A stretch of DNA of 64,000 nt from Acidobacteriota bacterium (lineage in GTDB: Bacteria > Acidobacteriota > Terriglobia > Terriglobales > Acidobacteriaceae). Position 1 is the stretch's first letter; every line of letters begins with the position of its first letter. Location: assembly GCA_021816455.1 (NCBI GenBank), contig JAKAXU010000006.1, positions 1 to 64,000 of the forward strand. The letters are read 5' to 3'. The notes below the pieces were generated by a model that was not told the DNA's origin, ran no database searches, and worked only from the letters and a program-made list of their open reading frames with translations. Below, one piece after another: positions 14,272-47,467 of this stretch. The position numbers were made by a program, and so were the translations under genes.

Positions 14272-14333
14272 ATTAGCCCGCAAAATTATCGGCGCAATCT
14301 TCGGTCGCGCGCCGCAAATCAGGAGGGAATGTG

Positions 14334-15983
14334 ATGATTCGATCCACTCTTCCAAGAGATACCCGACGCGTTTCAGCGAGTGCGCGATGGGCCTTGCCTC
14401 TGCTTGTGCTGCTGGCTACTATTCCGGGTGCCGCCGCGCAATCCAACCCCGACGCATCCGCGCCGCGCATTGTTCGTTCGAATGGTCACTATGCGCTGCT
14501 GGTGGATGGCCAGCCATTTCTGGTGCTGGGCGGACAGATCAACAACTCCAGTGCCTGGCCCGCTACGATGCCTCAGGTGTGGCCGATGATCGCAGCCATT
14601 CACGCTAATACTGTCGAGGCTCCGATCTATTGGGAGCAGATGGAGCCGAAGCCCGGCGTCTTCGATTTCAGCAACGTAGATATGCTGCTGAATCAGGCAC
14701 GAGCGCACAATGTGCATCTGGTGCTGCTCTGGTTTGGGACGTGGAAGAACGGCGAGGATCATTACGTGCCAGAGTGGGTGAAGACTGAGCCGCAGAAGTT
14801 TCCGCGCATGATCGACGAGCGCGGTGAACCTGTGCAGGTGCTGTCGGCAAACTCGGCGGCCAACCTCGACGCGGACCGTACCGCGTTTGTCGCGCTTATG
14901 CATCACCTGGCGCAGATGGACGGAACGCAGCACACGGTGCTGATGGTTCAGGTGGAGAACGAATCCGGAGCCATCGGCGCAGTGCGCGACCACTCTCCGC
15001 AAGCGGAAAAGGAGTTTGACGGACCGGTGCCGCAGACGGTGTTGACGGCGATGCACAAGTCGCCGGGAACGTGGCGTCAGGTCTTCGGTTTCCAGGCGGA
15101 TGAATACTTTCAGGCGTACTCAGTCGCGCGCTATATCAATGCGATTGCGACAGCAGGCAAGCAGGAATTCAACATCCCGATGTATTGCAATGTGTGGATA
15201 GAGTATCCGCGCGGCTACCAGATTCGCGGCTATCTGCTGCCGGGGTTCGACTATCCAAGTGGAGGCCCGGTGCAGACGAACATCGCGATCTGGAAGGCGG
15301 TGGCGCCAGCGCTCGATGCACTGGGGCCAGACATCTACAGCGCTGATCGCGGATTTGAGAAGCAAGTGATGGAAACCTACAACCGGCCGGACAATCCACT
15401 CTGGATTCCGGAGACGGGAAGCAGCGCGGCCTTTGGCGCAGAGTTTTTCTATGCTCTGGGGCGCGGTGCAATTGGTTTTTCTCCCTTCGGCCTCGACCAG
15501 ACGGGGTGGACGTTCAAGCCGGGTGAGATTCCGCAGGAGTTAGCCGACGACTATGGCATGATCGGGCCAATGGATCGCGTGGTGGCTGCGTTGAATGCCC
15601 AGGGCAAGCTGCAAACGGCAGTGGAGGAAGCTGGCGAAACAGAAGAGACACTGCACTTCGGCAAGTGGACGGCGGTGGTGGGATTCGGAACGCGCCAGCC
15701 GGACGGCGAGGCGCACGCACCCGGCACGCCGCACCATGATGCGCATGCACTCGTAGCACAGATCGGACCGGACGATTTTCTGGTTACGGGCACCAACTGT
15801 CGCGTGACGTTTTCGCTGGCCGCAGGGGAAACCGGGCATATGCAGATTCTGCGCGCCGAACAAGGCACATACGACGAGACAACATGGAAGCCGCAACGCA
15901 TTCTGAACGGCGACCAGACAGACCGCGGAGTGAACTTCCGCGCAGACGTACAATACGTTCAGGTGCATCTGGGGACGTACTGA
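14334..15983 (+). CDS. Secreted GH35-like beta-galactosidase (DUF5597 type)
   Basis: Glycoside hydrolase of the GH35 clan, expected to release terminal beta-galactosyl (or related) residues outside the cytoplasm. 549 residues from ATG 14334, seven bases after AGGAGG. A GTG immediately before it at 14331 is less well spaced. A signal peptide ends near GAAAQ (about 36). The TIM barrel includes VEAPIYWEQMEPKPG. Acid/base Glu is in VQVENESG (E210) and the likely nucleophile in WIPETGSS (E360). The C-terminal part fits the DUF5597 beta-domain often attached to these enzymes. A LacI-like motif lies upstream. Divergent from larE. Confidence 0.87.
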   Translation: MIRSTLPRDTRRVSASARWALPLLVLLATIPGAAAQSNPDASAPRIVRSNGHYALLVDGQPFLVLGGQINNSSAWPATMPQVWPMIAAIHANTVEAPIYWEQMEPKPGVFDFSNVDMLLNQARAHNVHLVLLWFGTWKNGEDHYVPEWVKTEPQKFPRMIDERGEPVQVLSANSAANLDADRTAFVALMHHLAQMDGTQHTVLMVQVENESGAIGAVRDHSPQAEKEFDGPVPQTVLTAMHKSPGTWRQVFGFQADEYFQAYSVARYINAIATAGKQEFNIPMYCNVWIEYPRGYQIRGYLLPGFDYPSGGPVQTNIAIWKAVAPALDALGPDIYSADRGFEKQVMETYNRPDNPLWIPETGSSAAFGAEFFYALGRGAIGFSPFGLDQTGWTFKPGEIPQELADDYGMIGPMDRVVAALNAQGKLQTAVEEAGETEETLHFGKWTAVVGFGTRQPDGEAHAPGTPHHDAHALVAQIGPDDFLVTGTNCRVTFSLAAGETGHMQILRAEQGTYDETTWKPQRILNGDQTDRGVNFRADVQYVQVHLGTY

Positions 15984-42463: not shown

Positions 42464-43591
42464 TTACTTCTGCTCCTGCCCACCCAGAATCATCGCCGCC
42501 GGTTCCGATCCATCGACCACGTATACCCAGCCGGAGAGCGGCGACTCCATCAGTTGCTCGCTCAGCCGTCCCTCGGAGCTGCCGGCAATGCGCAAATCCG
42601 TGTAAGAGTAGGCGAAGCGCAGATCGCTGAATTCCACCGTCGTCCAGCGCTGTCCTCCCGGCAATTGCGCGCCGCCAACCCCGCCCACGTCTATGCCTGC
42701 AATCTTAACCGGCCCAAGATCGCGCACCACCGGCCACTGCGACCAGTCCAGATACACTCGGCCCAGCTGCGTCTGTTTCGCCGCTGCAATGGCCGGAGTC
42801 ATGGGCGGCTTGAAGAGCGCGTTGGTCCTGGGATCGCTGTCCACCACTCCAGTACGCGTATCGATCTCCGCCGTCTGCCAGGTAGTCTTCGTCTCTATGA
42901 TCGCGTGCCAACGAAACGGATTCCAGGGATATGGCTCCAGAGCCACGCGCAGAGGTTGCGTCGGCGTCACGTCCGCAGCCAGCAGTCGATTGCGCGCATC
43001 CGCCTGCTCCGCCCAGCGCCAGCACCACAGCAGCACCATCCCACACAAAGCGGCTATCGCCAATCCGCGCCCATGAAATCCCTTTCTCCGCGCGCCGATC
43101 TCCTGGTCCGCAAGGCCAAGAAACGCAGGGATCAGCAGCGCCAGACCCAGCATCAGCAGCAGCGCCGGCTCCACGATGAAAACCAGACTGCCGGCATACC
43201 AGTGTCGATCGAACGGGAAAAACAGGCGGAGTCCGTAGTTATTCGTCCAGTCCAGCAGCAGATGACTCAAATCCGCAGCCAAAGCCGTCAGCCAGACCCA
43301 TCCCCAGCGCACGGTCTGCAACGCGGGGCCGGATCGACGACGCCTGCGCCAGCGGTTCCAGAGCCACACGATACCGGTTGTTATCGCCGCCATCACGGGT
43401 GCGGCAATGAGCGTATGAGTGATGCCGCGATGATGCGCCAACCCGGAGACCGGGCCACGCAAGCCCCACAAGACATCGATATCCGGAGCCTCGGCCGCCA
43501 GCGTCGCCACCAGCGTGGCATACGCTGTCTTGCGATTCCATCCCGCACGCCCTATGCATGCGCCCGTCAGAAAATGTGTAACCGGATCCAT
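42464..43591 (-). CDS. YdjM-like membrane-bound metal-dependent hydrolase
   Basis: 375 residues. It starts MDPVTHFLTGACIGRAGWNR, the hallmark of the YdjM/DUF457 family, with further conserved segments AAEAPDIDVLWGL and HHRGITHTLIAAPVMAA. Together these supply the His/Asp residues (TH, DID, HHRGITH) thought to bind metal at the membrane face. Four to five transmembrane helices follow (about 65-190). The C-terminal 190 residues form a soluble, probably periplasmic domain with an RVYLDWSQWPVV segment. YdjM is SOS-regulated in E. coli; no LexA box was recognised here. Divergent from nadD by 42 bases. Confidence 0.88.
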   Translation of the reverse strand: MDPVTHFLTGACIGRAGWNRKTAYATLVATLAAEAPDIDVLWGLRGPVSGLAHHRGITHTLIAAPVMAAITTGIVWLWNRWRRRRRSGPALQTVRWGWVWLTALAADLSHLLLDWTNNYGLRLFFPFDRHWYAGSLVFIVEPALLLMLGLALLIPAFLGLADQEIGARRKGFHGRGLAIAALCGMVLLWCWRWAEQADARNRLLAADVTPTQPLRVALEPYPWNPFRWHAIIETKTTWQTAEIDTRTGVVDSDPRTNALFKPPMTPAIAAAKQTQLGRVYLDWSQWPVVRDLGPVKIAGIDVGGVGGAQLPGGQRWTTVEFSDLRFAYSYTDLRIAGSSEGRLSEQLMESPLSGWVYVVDGSEPAAMILGGQEQK

Positions 43592-43633
43592 GGTGGACCC
43601 ATTCTACCGACTGACCTTCGCTACGATGAAAGC

Positions 43634-44416
43634 ATGGCAACCGAGGACGAGAAATCCACTTCTGCCGCGCCGTCAGCCGGGAGGCGCCGGATCGCGTTCT
43701 TCGGCGGCAGCTTCGATCCGCCGCACTGCGGTCATCTGGCGATAGCGCGCGCCGCGCAGCGGGCTTTGCATCTCGACACCGTACTGTTTGCGCCTGTTGG
43801 ACGGCAACCGCTGAAGACGGGCACGGGACGCGCCACGGATTTTCTTCACCGCGCTGCTATGACCCAACTCGCCATTGCCGGAGAACCGAATTTCGAGCTT
43901 TCTCTGATCGACGCGCCGAATGCCGAGGGCAAGCCAAATTACACCGTGGATACCCTGGTTCGGCTACGTGACGATCTGCCTGCCGCAGCGGAGCTGTACC
44001 TGCTCATCGGCGCCGATTCGCTCTCCCAGTTCCAGCGCTGGCACCGTGCAGCGGAGCTTCCATTCCTGGCCACGCTGATCGTGGCTTCGCGTCCCGGAGA
44101 ATGCAGCCGGGTGCTCGCGGATCCCGATGCCTGGCTGCCACCGGAGTTACGCGTCGATCCCACGGCAGAGCATCAAGCGGAGGATCAAGGCGATCACCGC
44201 ACTCTGCACCTGGTGGACTCGTCCGGTCGCCGCGCCAGAATCTGCGTCCTAGACGACCTTGCCGTTGCCATCAGCGCCACTGAATTGCGCCAACTGCTGA
44301 GCGAATCATCCAGCGGCTTGCGCCAAACCAGCGTGCAGAACCTCTTGCCCGATGCAGTGCTCGACTATATTTGCGCGCATCACATCTACGTCGATCGCAT
44401 CTGTTCCGATCGCTGA
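43634..44416 (+). CDS. nadD: Nicotinate-nucleotide adenylyltransferase
   Basis: NadD transfers AMP from ATP to nicotinic acid mononucleotide, giving deamido-NAD. 260 residues from ATG 43634, longer than the usual 190-220. The extra length is an N-terminal stretch of about 17 residues and an insertion rich in Asp, His and Glu (about 180-195). The nucleotide-binding motif is FFGGSFDPPHCGH (about 22-34). YLLIGADSLSQFQRWH and the C-terminal ISATELRQLL are diagnostic. It lies 74 bases upstream of rsfS, the common nadD-rsfS order. Its product, deamido-NAD, is the substrate of LarB in the operon at 11-14 kb. Confidence 0.96.
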   Translation: MATEDEKSTSAAPSAGRRRIAFFGGSFDPPHCGHLAIARAAQRALHLDTVLFAPVGRQPLKTGTGRATDFLHRAAMTQLAIAGEPNFELSLIDAPNAEGKPNYTVDTLVRLRDDLPAAAELYLLIGADSLSQFQRWHRAAELPFLATLIVASRPGECSRVLADPDAWLPPELRVDPTAEHQAEDQGDHRTLHLVDSSGRRARICVLDDLAVAISATELRQLLSESSSGLRQTSVQNLLPDAVLDYICAHHIYVDRICSDR

Positions 44417-44490
44417 ACTGCTGAATTCCATCCACTTCCTGCTACCATGAAGCGTGCTCGCCCAACGAGGACAGGAGAAGCTAAACGCAC

Positions 44491-45483
44491 ATGCCAAACA
44501 TGGAAACTCTTCAGCAACTGCTCGTGGCTGTCGCCGCATGTGAAGACAAAAAAGGGGACGACACACGCATCCTCGCTCTCGATCCCATGGACTCCGGTCT
44601 GGCCGATTATTTCCTCATCGCATCCGGCTCCAACGATCGTCAGGTTCTGGCCATCGCCGATGAGATTGAGCTGCAACTGAAGCGCAAATTCGGGCTCTAT
44701 CCGCGCTCCGTCGAAGGACGTCAAAAATCAGAGTGGATTCTGCTCGATTATGTGGATATAGTTGTTCACGTCTTCCTTTCTGAGAAGCGTGCGTACTATG
44801 ACATTGAGCGTCTCCGGAAAAGCGCTCAGTTGCTCACTGGAGACGAAGTGCAGAGGTTGCTGGAACGGGAACAACGCACGCGAAACGAGAAGAAGACACT
44901 GATTAGCGGTGCCAAATCAAAATCCGTGAAGGGAGAATCATCGATGAGTCCATCGCCCAAGAAACCGGCTGCGAAGAAGGCAGCCGCGAAACCAGCAGCA
45001 AAGAAAGCCGCTCCGAAAAAGGTAGTGAAAAAGACCGCGGCAAAACCGGCTGCCAAGAAAGCCGCTCCAAAGAAAGCTGCGGCGAAACCGGCTGCAAAGA
45101 AGGCTGCGGCAAAACCCGCCGCAAAGAAAGCGGCTCCGAAGAAGGTAGTCAAGAAGGCTGCCGCGAAACCGGCTGCCAAGAAAGCCGCTCCAAAGAAAGC
45201 TGCGGCGAAACCAGTAGCCAAGAAAGTCGCTGCTAAGCCTGCGGCCAAGAAGGCTGCTCCTGCCAAGAAAGCTGCTTCGAAGAAAGTTCCAGCGATCAAA
45301 GCTGCTGCAAAACCCGCCGCAAAGAAAGCTGCCGCGCCGGCCAAGGTCGGTACTACTTCGCAGTACCTCACCCAGCCTCGCTCCGGAGCAGAGATGCCGG
45401 ATCAGTTCCTGACCCGTCCGCGAGAAAGCGCTGAGATGCCCGCAAGCATTGCGGCCAGCACGGAACCGAAACCGGAAAACTAA
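44491..45483 (+). CDS. rsfS: Ribosomal silencing factor RsfS fused to histone-H1-like tail
   Basis: RsfS (YbeB/Iojap) binds ribosomal protein uL14 and blocks joining of the subunits. The first 115 residues are a complete RsfS domain: DPMDSGLADYFLIASGSNDR, SVEGRQKSEWILLDYVDIVV and VFLSEKRAYYDIERL. A charged linker follows. From about residue 152 to 300 the protein is almost only Lys, Ala and Pro (KKAAPKK, AAKPAAKK), like bacterial H1-type DNA-binding proteins and AlgP. The end (TSQYLTQPRSGAEMPDQFLT) is ordinary. The usual length is 100-130 residues, so this 330-residue form is extended. An internal ATG at 44944 has a strong ribosome site. Follows nadD; a long terminator comes next. Confidence 0.93.
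   Translation: MPNMETLQQLLVAVAACEDKKGDDTRILALDPMDSGLADYFLIASGSNDRQVLAIADEIELQLKRKFGLYPRSVEGRQKSEWILLDYVDIVVHVFLSEKRAYYDIERLRKSAQLLTGDEVQRLLEREQRTRNEKKTLISGAKSKSVKGESSMSPSPKKPAAKKAAAKPAAKKAAPKKVVKKTAAKPAAKKAAPKKAAAKPAAKKAAAKPAAKKAAPKKVVKKAAAKPAAKKAAPKKAAAKPVAKKVAAKPAAKKAAPAKKAASKKVPAIKAAAKPAAKKAAAPAKVGTTSQYLTQPRSGAEMPDQFLTRPRESAEMPASIAASTEPKPEN
44944..45483 (+). other. Possible nested start giving a separate H1-like protein
   Basis: Within rsfS, in frame, AAGGGAGAA (44929-44937) precedes ATG 44944. The six-base gap to that nine-base stretch leaves eight bases after its GGGAG core. The site falls exactly at the border between the RsfS part and the lysine/alanine-rich part, and would yield a 179-residue basic protein beginning MSPSPKKPAAKK. 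Inferred from sequence only. Confidence 0.4.
45001..45246 (+). repeat. Two 123-bp direct repeats inside the rsfS tail
   Basis: Units 45001-45123 and 45124-45246 each encode 41 residues starting KKAAPKKVVKK and ending AAKPAA. They differ by only a few codons. Shorter KAAPKK and AAKPAAKK periods extend on both sides, showing growth by local duplication. Confidence 0.8.
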
Positions 45484-45503
45484 CCTCCGATCGTTTCAGG
45501 CAA

Positions 45504-45545
45504 AGCAGAAGGGCGGAACCAGACAACTGGCTCCGCCCTTCTGCT
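45504..45545 (+). terminator. Rho-independent-type terminator after rsfS
   Basis: A 19-base stem pairs AGCAGAAGGGCGGAACCAG (45504-45522) with CTGGCTCCGCCCTTCTGCT (45527-45545). It has one mismatch and a four-base loop. The T tract after it is short (gtttgg). It begins 20 bases after the rsfS stop. Confidence 0.75.
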
Positions 45546-45676
45546 GTTTGGGGCCGGACACGATTGCCGGAGCAACGCATGCGTCCGAGTTTCCGGACCC
45601 TTTCTGCTTTCCGTCCCTGCATTCGTCAGGAGAAAATCTATTTCCATTTCAGGGCCATTACTGGTAACAATGACGC

Positions 45677-47467
45677 ATGCCTTCTCATCTCCTGCACGTG
45701 CCCTCTGGCGTCTCTCTTGCCGTGGCGATCGTCCTTGCCCTTGCGTCTCAGCCCTGTCGAGCAGCCTTGCATCCGTCGGCGTCCGGTACCGTTCCTCCCA
45801 CGCTCGACAGTGAACTCTTCGAGGTCACCGTCCCGCAACTGGAAAGCCTCTACACCGCGCATTCAGTCACCGTCACGCAGGTTGTCCAATGGCACCTGGC
45901 GCGGATCGACCGCTACAACCCCATCTATCGCGCCGTGCAGACTGTCGAGCGCAAAGAGGCGCTGGCCCGCGCAGCCGCGCTCGACGCCGAGCTTGCCTCC
46001 GGCCATCTGCCGTCGTGGCCTGCGCGCGGTCTGCTGTGGGGTGTGCCCATCGTCACCAAGGCCAACACCAGCATCGCCGGTCAGGTGACCACCGATGGCT
46101 GGCGTGGGTACATGCTGCCCGGCCATGAACTCACCGCTCCGCGAGACGCCACGATTGCAGCGCGCCTTCGCGCAGCCGGAGCCATCTTTCTCGGCATCAC
46201 CAACATGCCGGATTTTGCCGCCAGCGACACCAACCGTAGCACGGCCTACGGCCGCACCGGCAATGCCTACGATGTGCGTTTCAGCCCGGGCGGCTCCTCC
46301 GGCGGAACGGTCACTGCGGTCACCAGTGACTACGCCGTGCTCGGCAACGGCACCGACACCGGCAACTCGATTCGCATGCCTTCGGCCACCAGCTCCGTCG
46401 TCGGAGTTTTCCCCACACGCGGCCTGGTCAGCATTGCCGGCATCGCGCCACTGGACTGGCTGTTGGACAACACCGGACCGATCGCCCGCACCGTTACCGA
46501 CGCCGCCATCGCGCTCACGGTGATGACTGGCGCCGATCCCACGCCGCAACCCGATCCGCTCGATCCGCGGACAGCCGAGGCGCCGAAACGCGCCCAGCCC
46601 GGACCGTACACGCAATACCTGAAGTCCGGTGCGCTGCACGGCAAGCGATTCGGAGTGCCCGCATTCATTCTGCAAGGCTCCGGCATTCCCTTTCAGGGCA
46701 TCCCGTCCGTTGTTCCGGACGATGTTGCAGCCTCCGAAGAGAAGGATGCGGAGCTGCCGCTGCGCGCCTCCACCCGCAAGGCATTCCTTGCCGCGCTTGA
46801 CGGCCTCCGTGCCGCCGGAGCCACCATCGTCTTCGATGACGCCATACTGCCGCCGTCGTTTGCACGCATTGTCAGCCGCGCTGGAACCATGCCGTACGTC
46901 GAAGAAGGAACCAATCAGTTTCTGAAAGAATTTGGCCCGGCAGAGTACCATTCTGCTGCGGAATACCAGAATGCAACCGGCCACGCGCTGCCAGACACCA
47001 TCGTGAACCCGACGCGACTGCGCAAGGACGAGCCATTGCAGCAACAGCGTCTCATCGAGAGCGATCCTGCTGCACAGGCCAACTATTTTCGTCCACGCCA
47101 GCAGGCACTCGATGAGTACAACGCCACGCTCGACCGCCTCCACCTCGACGGCTACGTTTATCCCGCAACCCAAATGCCGCCGCCCGACGAGACCATGCCC
47201 CAGAACGGCGCAAAGACAGGCGGTGTTTCCGGCACCATCAGTGAAGGTCCGCACAGCGACACCAGCTGGGTCAACATTCTGGGCGTTCCTGCCATCGTTG
47301 TACCTGGCGGTTTCTATCCTTCCGGATTGCCCTTCGGTCTGGAAATTTCCACCCGCCGCTGGCACGACGGCGATTTGCTTGGCTGGGCCTTCGCCTACGA
47401 GCAGATCACGCACCATCGCCGCCCGCCGGTGCTGGTCGAGCAGGGATTGCTGCCCAACGCGCGTTGA
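45677..47467 (+). CDS. Exported amidase-signature-family hydrolase
   Basis: 596 residues with a signal peptide (GVSLAVAIVLALASQPCRA). The amidase signature triad is present with canonical spacing: K128 in VPIVTKAN, cis-Ser S207 in SPGGSSGG and nucleophile S231 in GTDTGNSIRMPS. In the last motif Asn replaces the usual second Gly next to the nucleophile. The rest follows the GatA/peptide-amidase fold, with VGVFPTRGLVSIAG and a C-terminal VNILGVPAIVVPGGF. The product should cleave amide bonds of a periplasmic substrate; peptide amidases of this type are frequent in acidobacteria. Monocistronic by appearance; convergent with hslR. Confidence 0.92.
   Translation: MPSHLLHVPSGVSLAVAIVLALASQPCRAALHPSASGTVPPTLDSELFEVTVPQLESLYTAHSVTVTQVVQWHLARIDRYNPIYRAVQTVERKEALARAAALDAELASGHLPSWPARGLLWGVPIVTKANTSIAGQVTTDGWRGYMLPGHELTAPRDATIAARLRAAGAIFLGITNMPDFAASDTNRSTAYGRTGNAYDVRFSPGGSSGGTVTAVTSDYAVLGNGTDTGNSIRMPSATSSVVGVFPTRGLVSIAGIAPLDWLLDNTGPIARTVTDAAIALTVMTGADPTPQPDPLDPRTAEAPKRAQPGPYTQYLKSGALHGKRFGVPAFILQGSGIPFQGIPSVVPDDVAASEEKDAELPLRASTRKAFLAALDGLRAAGATIVFDDAILPPSFARIVSRAGTMPYVEEGTNQFLKEFGPAEYHSAAEYQNATGHALPDTIVNPTRLRKDEPLQQQRLIESDPAAQANYFRPRQQALDEYNATLDRLHLDGYVYPATQMPPPDETMPQNGAKTGGVSGTISEGPHSDTSWVNILGVPAIVVPGGFYPSGLPFGLEISTRRWHDGDLLGWAFAYEQITHHRRPPVLVEQGLLPNAR

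Follow-up and report, generated by a model that had tools for sequence, protein, structure and literature searches.

An rsfS gene of Acidobacteriaceae with a histone H1-like tail and a conserved putative internal start site

In the window (the whole stretch of acidobacterial DNA analysed here, 64,000 nt), a gene for the ribosome silencer RsfS runs in frame into a histone H1-like tail, and a Shine-Dalgarno (SD) sequence with a start codon is conserved at the head of the tail module across the genus. Sequence comparison suggests that this gene, rsfS-H1, is probably a two-product gene, one mRNA giving both a basic-tailed RsfS and an H1-like polycation on its own. Initiation at 44491 would yield a 35 kDa RsfS with a basic tail which, judging from its family, would dock on uL14 of the 50S subunit. 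Initiation at the internal SD and the ATG at 44944 would yield a free 18 kDa H1-like polycation from the same mRNA. This proposal supposes that ribosomes use the internal site, that the short product may bind nucleic acid or polyphosphate, and that the tail would add nucleic-acid affinity to full-length RsfS.

The rsfS-H1 open reading frame

The locus comprises the following features.

43697-44149, forward strand: CTP_transf_like domain of the gene upstream (domain match)
44473-44477, forward strand: AGGAG 5' of the rsfS start; SD energy at the gene's own start -6.4
44491-45483, forward strand: rsfS-H1 fusion ORF, 330 aa, open frame
44527-44814, forward strand: RsfS domain PF02410, with W82, D86 and R100 present
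44815-44943, forward strand: linker of 43 residues (aa 109-151) from the RsfS domain to the putative internal start (from the frame)
44929-44937, forward strand: internal SD AAGGGAGAA, energy -7.7 kcal/mol (from the sequence)
44944-44946, forward strand: putative internal start ATG; each of the 14 congeners has ATG or GTG here
44944-45483, forward strand: H1-like module, 179 aa, 17.9 kDa, pI 10.9; HC2 match at aa 154-292 (44950-45366)
45349-45480, forward strand: non-basic C-terminal segment of 44 residues with a motif present twice, QYLTQPRSGAEMP and QFLTRPRESAEMP (from the sequence)
45504-45545, forward strand: strong hairpin 3' of the stop codon, possible terminator (from the sequence)

The frame is open from 44491 to 45483, coordinates that include the stop codon, and its RsfS domain is complete: PF02410 matched aa 13-108 at 97.9 bits (Pfam cut-off 21.6) and TIGR00090 matched at 91.5 bits (NCBIfam cut-off 56.9). 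The first-pass annotation had described a complete RsfS domain in frame with an H1-like tail, and these matches and the open frame bear it out. The upstream gene carrying the CTP_transf_like domain is, by motif and place, what we take to be nadD; the downstream neighbour is an amidase gene. The hairpin at 45504-45545 received no call from the terminator scan. A promoter within rsfS was considered and rejected, as scanning 43500-46000 for sites of the sigma-70-like type alone revealed none. W82, D86 and R100, matched by motif and by eye, correspond to W77, D81 and R95, which the accessible text of PMC3400551 gives as the most conserved residues of E. coli RsfA.

The two parts of the protein differ in charge. 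The N-terminal portion (aa 1-151) has a pI of 5.9, and the tail (aa 152-330) consists of 35% Ala, 26% Lys and 13% Pro with a pI of 10.9. H1-like repeats do follow in frame, as first annotated, but the tail is about 180 rather than about 150 residues long, and its last 44 residues are non-basic. Similarly, the ATG at 44944 is indeed preceded by AAGGGAGAA, yet the RsfS domain ends earlier, at aa 108, and the 43-residue linker separates the two. The likeness of the tail to bacterial H1 proteins was upheld in part: HC2 (PF07382) scored 41.2 bits with the full protein and 39.7 bits with the tail alone against a cut-off of 40, a borderline result, and the histone H1-like model NF038053 scored 53.1 bits at full length and 53.8 bits with the tail alone, under its cut-off of 80. 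Two shuffled tails gave no Pfam match, which indicates that the order of the repeats counts and not composition alone. A PF07382 search of the source genome listed two other places and did not list the rsfS-H1 tail, and a profile search of seven genomes with NF038053 returned nothing above its cut-off. By profile the tail appears H1-like, and its assignment to HC2 is borderline.

Related ends are present in the tails of congeners (L009-L015), several of which carry GAKPPVVK-like repeats. The short repeats of the non-basic tail end are possibly a binding motif. Elsewhere in the source genome, a 358-aa ORF that is ATP-grasp-like by eye (L044, approximately G000:C56:19612-19764) has a Lys-rich end and a weak HC2 match.

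Conservation of the internal start site

Internal sites of this strength are not rare. Among 38 ORFs picked mechanically from the window (17,886 codons), we counted 14 in-frame internal NTG codons with an SD of -7.7 kcal/mol or stronger, the 44944 site itself included. An SD and ATG of this strength are unremarkable within one genome and prove nothing alone; the internal site exceeds chance by its conservation, not by its single-genome count.

The genus sample comprised 15 genomes including that of the source, 14 of them with an rsfS match; G005 (84% complete) had none. G008 and G012 share an identical rsfS protein, so that the 14 genomes represent 13 different proteins, and six genomes present in two collections (L003-L008 and L032-L037) were counted once. 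In all 14 congeners the Lys-rich tail continues the rsfS frame and an in-frame internal start is present at codon 150-195, ATG in nine and GTG in five. Its SD energy is -7.7 to -10.9, compared with -4.1 to -6.9 at the gene's own start, and the site is the best in-frame site in 12 of the 14 and the second best in G013 and G014. The first-pass annotation had made conservation in close relatives a test of its proposal, and an SD with a start codon was found in every congener with an rsfS match.

The site reads AAGGGAGAA[TA]CATCGATG in seven near genomes, AAAGGAG[AG][CT]TC[CA]nnn[AG]TG in six other congeners and GGGGGAGGAACGACTGTG in G006; the seven nearest genomes are almost identical here and weigh little more than one. 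The peptide KG[DEG][ST] is encoded at the site in 13 of 14 congeners. The loss of KG[DE][ST] in G006, where SD and GTG are nonetheless retained, suggests that the DNA itself is constrained. Moreover, all 14 congeners use GGA for the junction Gly, with GGAG in one register, whereas at each of the 14 invariant four-fold codons in the RsfS domain the third base varies among them; the Gly codon was chosen for this comparison after the SD had been seen. Except for the true start, no column of the RsfS domain has NTG in all 14. Where Val occupies the internal start position, it is always encoded by GTG (5/5). With the peptide held fixed, codon use alone produced such an SD in 13-28% of draws; when GTG for Val was also required, the proportion was 4-5%. 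The SD and start are conserved in the genus, with signs of constraint on the DNA itself.

Predicted mRNA folding was examined in the same congeners. In 13 of 14, the 46 bases around the internal start fold more weakly than the gene's median; the predicted pairing of the start codon itself is nearly complete in nine of 14 (unpaired probability at most 0.09), and openness of the mRNA there was accordingly rejected as supporting evidence. Among the near genomes, the start codon lies inside a small self-complementary stretch (44940-44961, CGATG AGTC CATCG) and is predicted to be mostly paired.

Controls outside the genus and in another gene

We compared 69 rsfS genes from 50 other genera of Acidobacteriaceae, 29 from 10 near genera and 40 from 40 further genera, one each, picked from the listed matches and not at random. 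None reached -7.7 past codon 100, the best value being -7.2; many of the 40 further-genera genes have short tails, leaving little room for an internal site, and L073 was counted although a contig end cuts its tail.

As a control in another gene, we followed the internal site of a glycosidase-like gene (window 14331-15980, codon ~314, SD -9.3) through its 13 best matches (L177-L189), leaving out paralogues and weak matches in G004 and G012. The strong SD is present in 5 of the 13 orthologues, the remaining eight having a weak one (-5.0 to -5.5), and the GTG is present in all 13. A protein can therefore preserve part of such a pattern. A second control gene was left out; it matched 10 of 15 genomes, many of the matches being partial or carrying internal stops.

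A second gene of the same design

The source genome contains a second gene (G000:C88:69423-70079, L143) in which an unrelated acidic N-terminal part with its own start (-9.3) is followed by STKRGKTVAAPKAAKK and then by an H1-like module (HC2 38.0 bits, below the cut-off of 40). Searches with this single sequence matched all 15 genus genomes and none of 10 other genera of the family. With a profile, 66 genomes out of 100 matched at E ≤ 0.001, many other genera among them; many of the weak matches probably reflect Lys-rich regions in genes other than this one, including rsfS. For analysis we used 41 loci, the 15 of the genus (L143-L157) and the 26 belonging to other genera among 30 loci from the profile search (L213-L242), omitting weaker profile matches, a partial copy in G005 (L162) and a match to another gene (L158).

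In 37 of these 41 loci, from 16 genera, an SD and a possible start directly precede the last Lys-rich module (for example, AAACGAGGTACTCCTTTGGCAGT); the box is missing from L232, L233, L239 and L242. The box finder accepted only Val, Leu or Met at the start position, took the strongest SD among its matches and applied no selection of codons. Nevertheless, all 28 loci with Leu at the start position encode it by TTG (11% of Leu codons in the window), and all nine with Val use GTG (39% of Val codons). Within the box, Gly is GGT in 36 of 37 (18% in the window) and Arg is AGA or CGA in 34 of 35 (17%). All but one of the 37 boxes have an SD energy of -7.1 to -8.5, the exception being that of G006 (-3.9). 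The single g13 locus encodes KKG, with AAGGGG, instead of KRG, and in both g18 loci (L226 and L238) an additional codon separates the SD from TTG. The box is conserved over more than 15 bases, on through bases past the start codon (TTGGCAGT), and shares only the SD and start with the rsfS box. The second gene independently supports the view that such borders are internal start sites, and it suggests a habit of the family rather than one accident.

Origin of the tail and of the internal start

In a tree of 56 RsfS domains, the 14 congeners fall on one side of a branch with support of 99/97, and the internal start fits one origin in the source genus. Basic tails are more widespread. Outside Acidobacteriaceae (order and class), 18 of 20 rsfS genes encode at most 18 residues past the domain, and the other two encode basic tails of 56 and 77 residues. 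Within the family, all 40 rsfS genes from the further genera encode at least 17 residues past aa 118, with 23-50% Lys plus Arg, and the near outgroup genera have longer Lys-rich tails. The basic RsfS tail as such is family-wide, and the long module with its own start appears, among the genomes sampled, only in the source genus. The two products that the first-pass annotation had proposed from one gene gain support from the 14/14 conservation and the apparent constraint at the DNA level, but a basic tail alone does not distinguish this rsfS within the family.

The sequences would fit a stepwise course: RsfS of the family at large acquired a short basic tail first, and a long H1-like module with its own start came later in the genus. 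Two donors of the module were sought and rejected. Within up to 1.5 kb after rsfS, the 28 outgroup loci that extend past the gene (L073 is cut short by its contig end) showed no same-strand Lys-rich open stretch of at least 60 residues and no H1-like ORF, so that an ancestral neighbour gene was not seen. Searching 61 genomes for a stand-alone homologue with the G011 module matched only G011, G002 and, weakly, the uL22-like tail of G031. The tail may have grown, or a module may have been inserted.

KAAAKK-type basic tails are also present in other genera on L102 (G031), L173 (G033) and L175 (G084), ORFs that we take to be like the ribosomal protein uL22. Basic tails are accordingly not special to RsfS.

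Discussion

Several readings compete with two products from rsfS-H1. The gene may make one product only, its tail being an RNA- or ribosome-binding extension of RsfS and the internal SD an unused by-product of the KG[DE]S linker or a relic of fusion. Across the family, RsfS generally has a basic tail with no internal start, the uL22-like ORFs of G031, G033 and G084 end in KAAAKK tails as well, and the KG[DEG][ST] peptide of 13 of 14 congeners by itself yields an SD in 13-28% of draws. We nonetheless regard a single product as improbable, given that G006 has the SD and GTG without the peptide, that GGA is present in 14 of 14 congeners and GTG encodes Val at the start position in 5 of 5, and that the second gene is under equal constraint on its DNA across 16 genera.

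Two further readings keep the conserved bases and dispense with initiation. One is that the internal SD slows ribosomes so that RsfS folds before its unstructured tail is made, with no second product; an SD 35-80 codons beyond the domain would suit folding outside the exit tunnel. However, pausing needs no start codon at a fixed spacing, and ATG or GTG stands there in 14 of 14 congeners, as does TTG or GTG in all 37 second-gene loci that have the box, where the finder required Val, Leu or Met and not a particular codon. Pausing alone has only a slight chance of being the explanation. The other reading, which we rate a shade lower again, is that a binding protein recognises the boxes, as DNA or as RNA, and that they merely resemble start sites. 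It would account for the conservation of the second-gene box over more than 15 bases, beyond its start codon. Yet L226 and L238 carry an extra codon between SD and TTG, which is tolerable for an SD and speaks against a rigid binding site, and the rsfS and second-gene boxes are alike only in SD and start. Two products from one mRNA is the reading that we favour.

RsfS, H1-like proteins and internal in-frame starts are each known, and their combination appears to be a new variant. Our search of the open-access literature, which covered titles and the beginnings of abstracts and had most subscription papers outside it, returned no RsfS with such a tail and no H1-like proteins of Acidobacteria. 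RsfS/RsfA silences ribosomes in stationary phase via L14, according to the accessible text of PMC3400551 and PMC7125091. Like the RsfS/RsfA/YbeB family (PF02410), the protein has the complete domain with W82, D86 and R100, and its gene adjoins a presumably nadD-like gene. Unlike known RsfS, it has about 220 residues past the domain, 179 of them forming the H1-like module with its own SD and putative start; the solved bacterial RsfS chains among the matches listed, including S. aureus RsfS (6sj5 and 6sj6), have 105-152 residues.

The tail resembles that of AlgP of Pseudomonas aeruginosa and other bacterial H1-like KPAA-repeat proteins, in which C-terminal Lys/Ala/Pro repeats follow an unrelated N-terminal part; the repeat part of AlgP, at 154 residues, is similar in length to the rsfS-H1 module (PMC9239181, accessible text). 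Unlike AlgP, rsfS-H1 has RsfS as its N-terminal part and a conserved putative internal start that could free the repeats; the accessible text of PMC9239181 does not mention an internal start in AlgP. Like chlamydial HC2/HctB (PF07382), the tail matches that profile, borderline at the cut-off, but the module lies within another gene and passes the curated threshold as part of the full-length protein, not by itself. SpaO offers a parallel for the proposed expression, a single frame giving a full-length protein and a C-terminal short form (PMC13059759, accessible text). Unlike that of SpaO, the predicted short form of rsfS-H1 is a low-complexity polycation, and its host gene encodes a translation silencer.

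The first-pass annotation had tied translation shut-off to chromosome compaction, and such a tie is possible. AlgP, with its H1-like KPAA domain, is described as a DNA-binding protein that starving cells need to space their polyphosphate granules evenly (PMC9239181, accessible text), which makes polyphosphate as plausible a ligand as DNA. More tentatively, and with rather less confidence than we place in the two products of rsfS-H1, we suggest that H1-like polycations in the family may be internally started C-terminal products of host genes. In the genus the host would be a ribosome silencer, one mRNA giving a ribosome lock and a packer of chromosome or polyphosphate; in the second gene the acidic N-terminus of the full-length form may shield the basic module, which internal initiation would release unmasked.

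If the proposal is true, one gene would set the ratio of a translation silencer to a polycationic packing protein, and a physical link between ribosome silencing and the organisation of nucleoid or polyphosphate would become testable. Annotation that allows one start per frame would then be overlooking a class of basic proteins.
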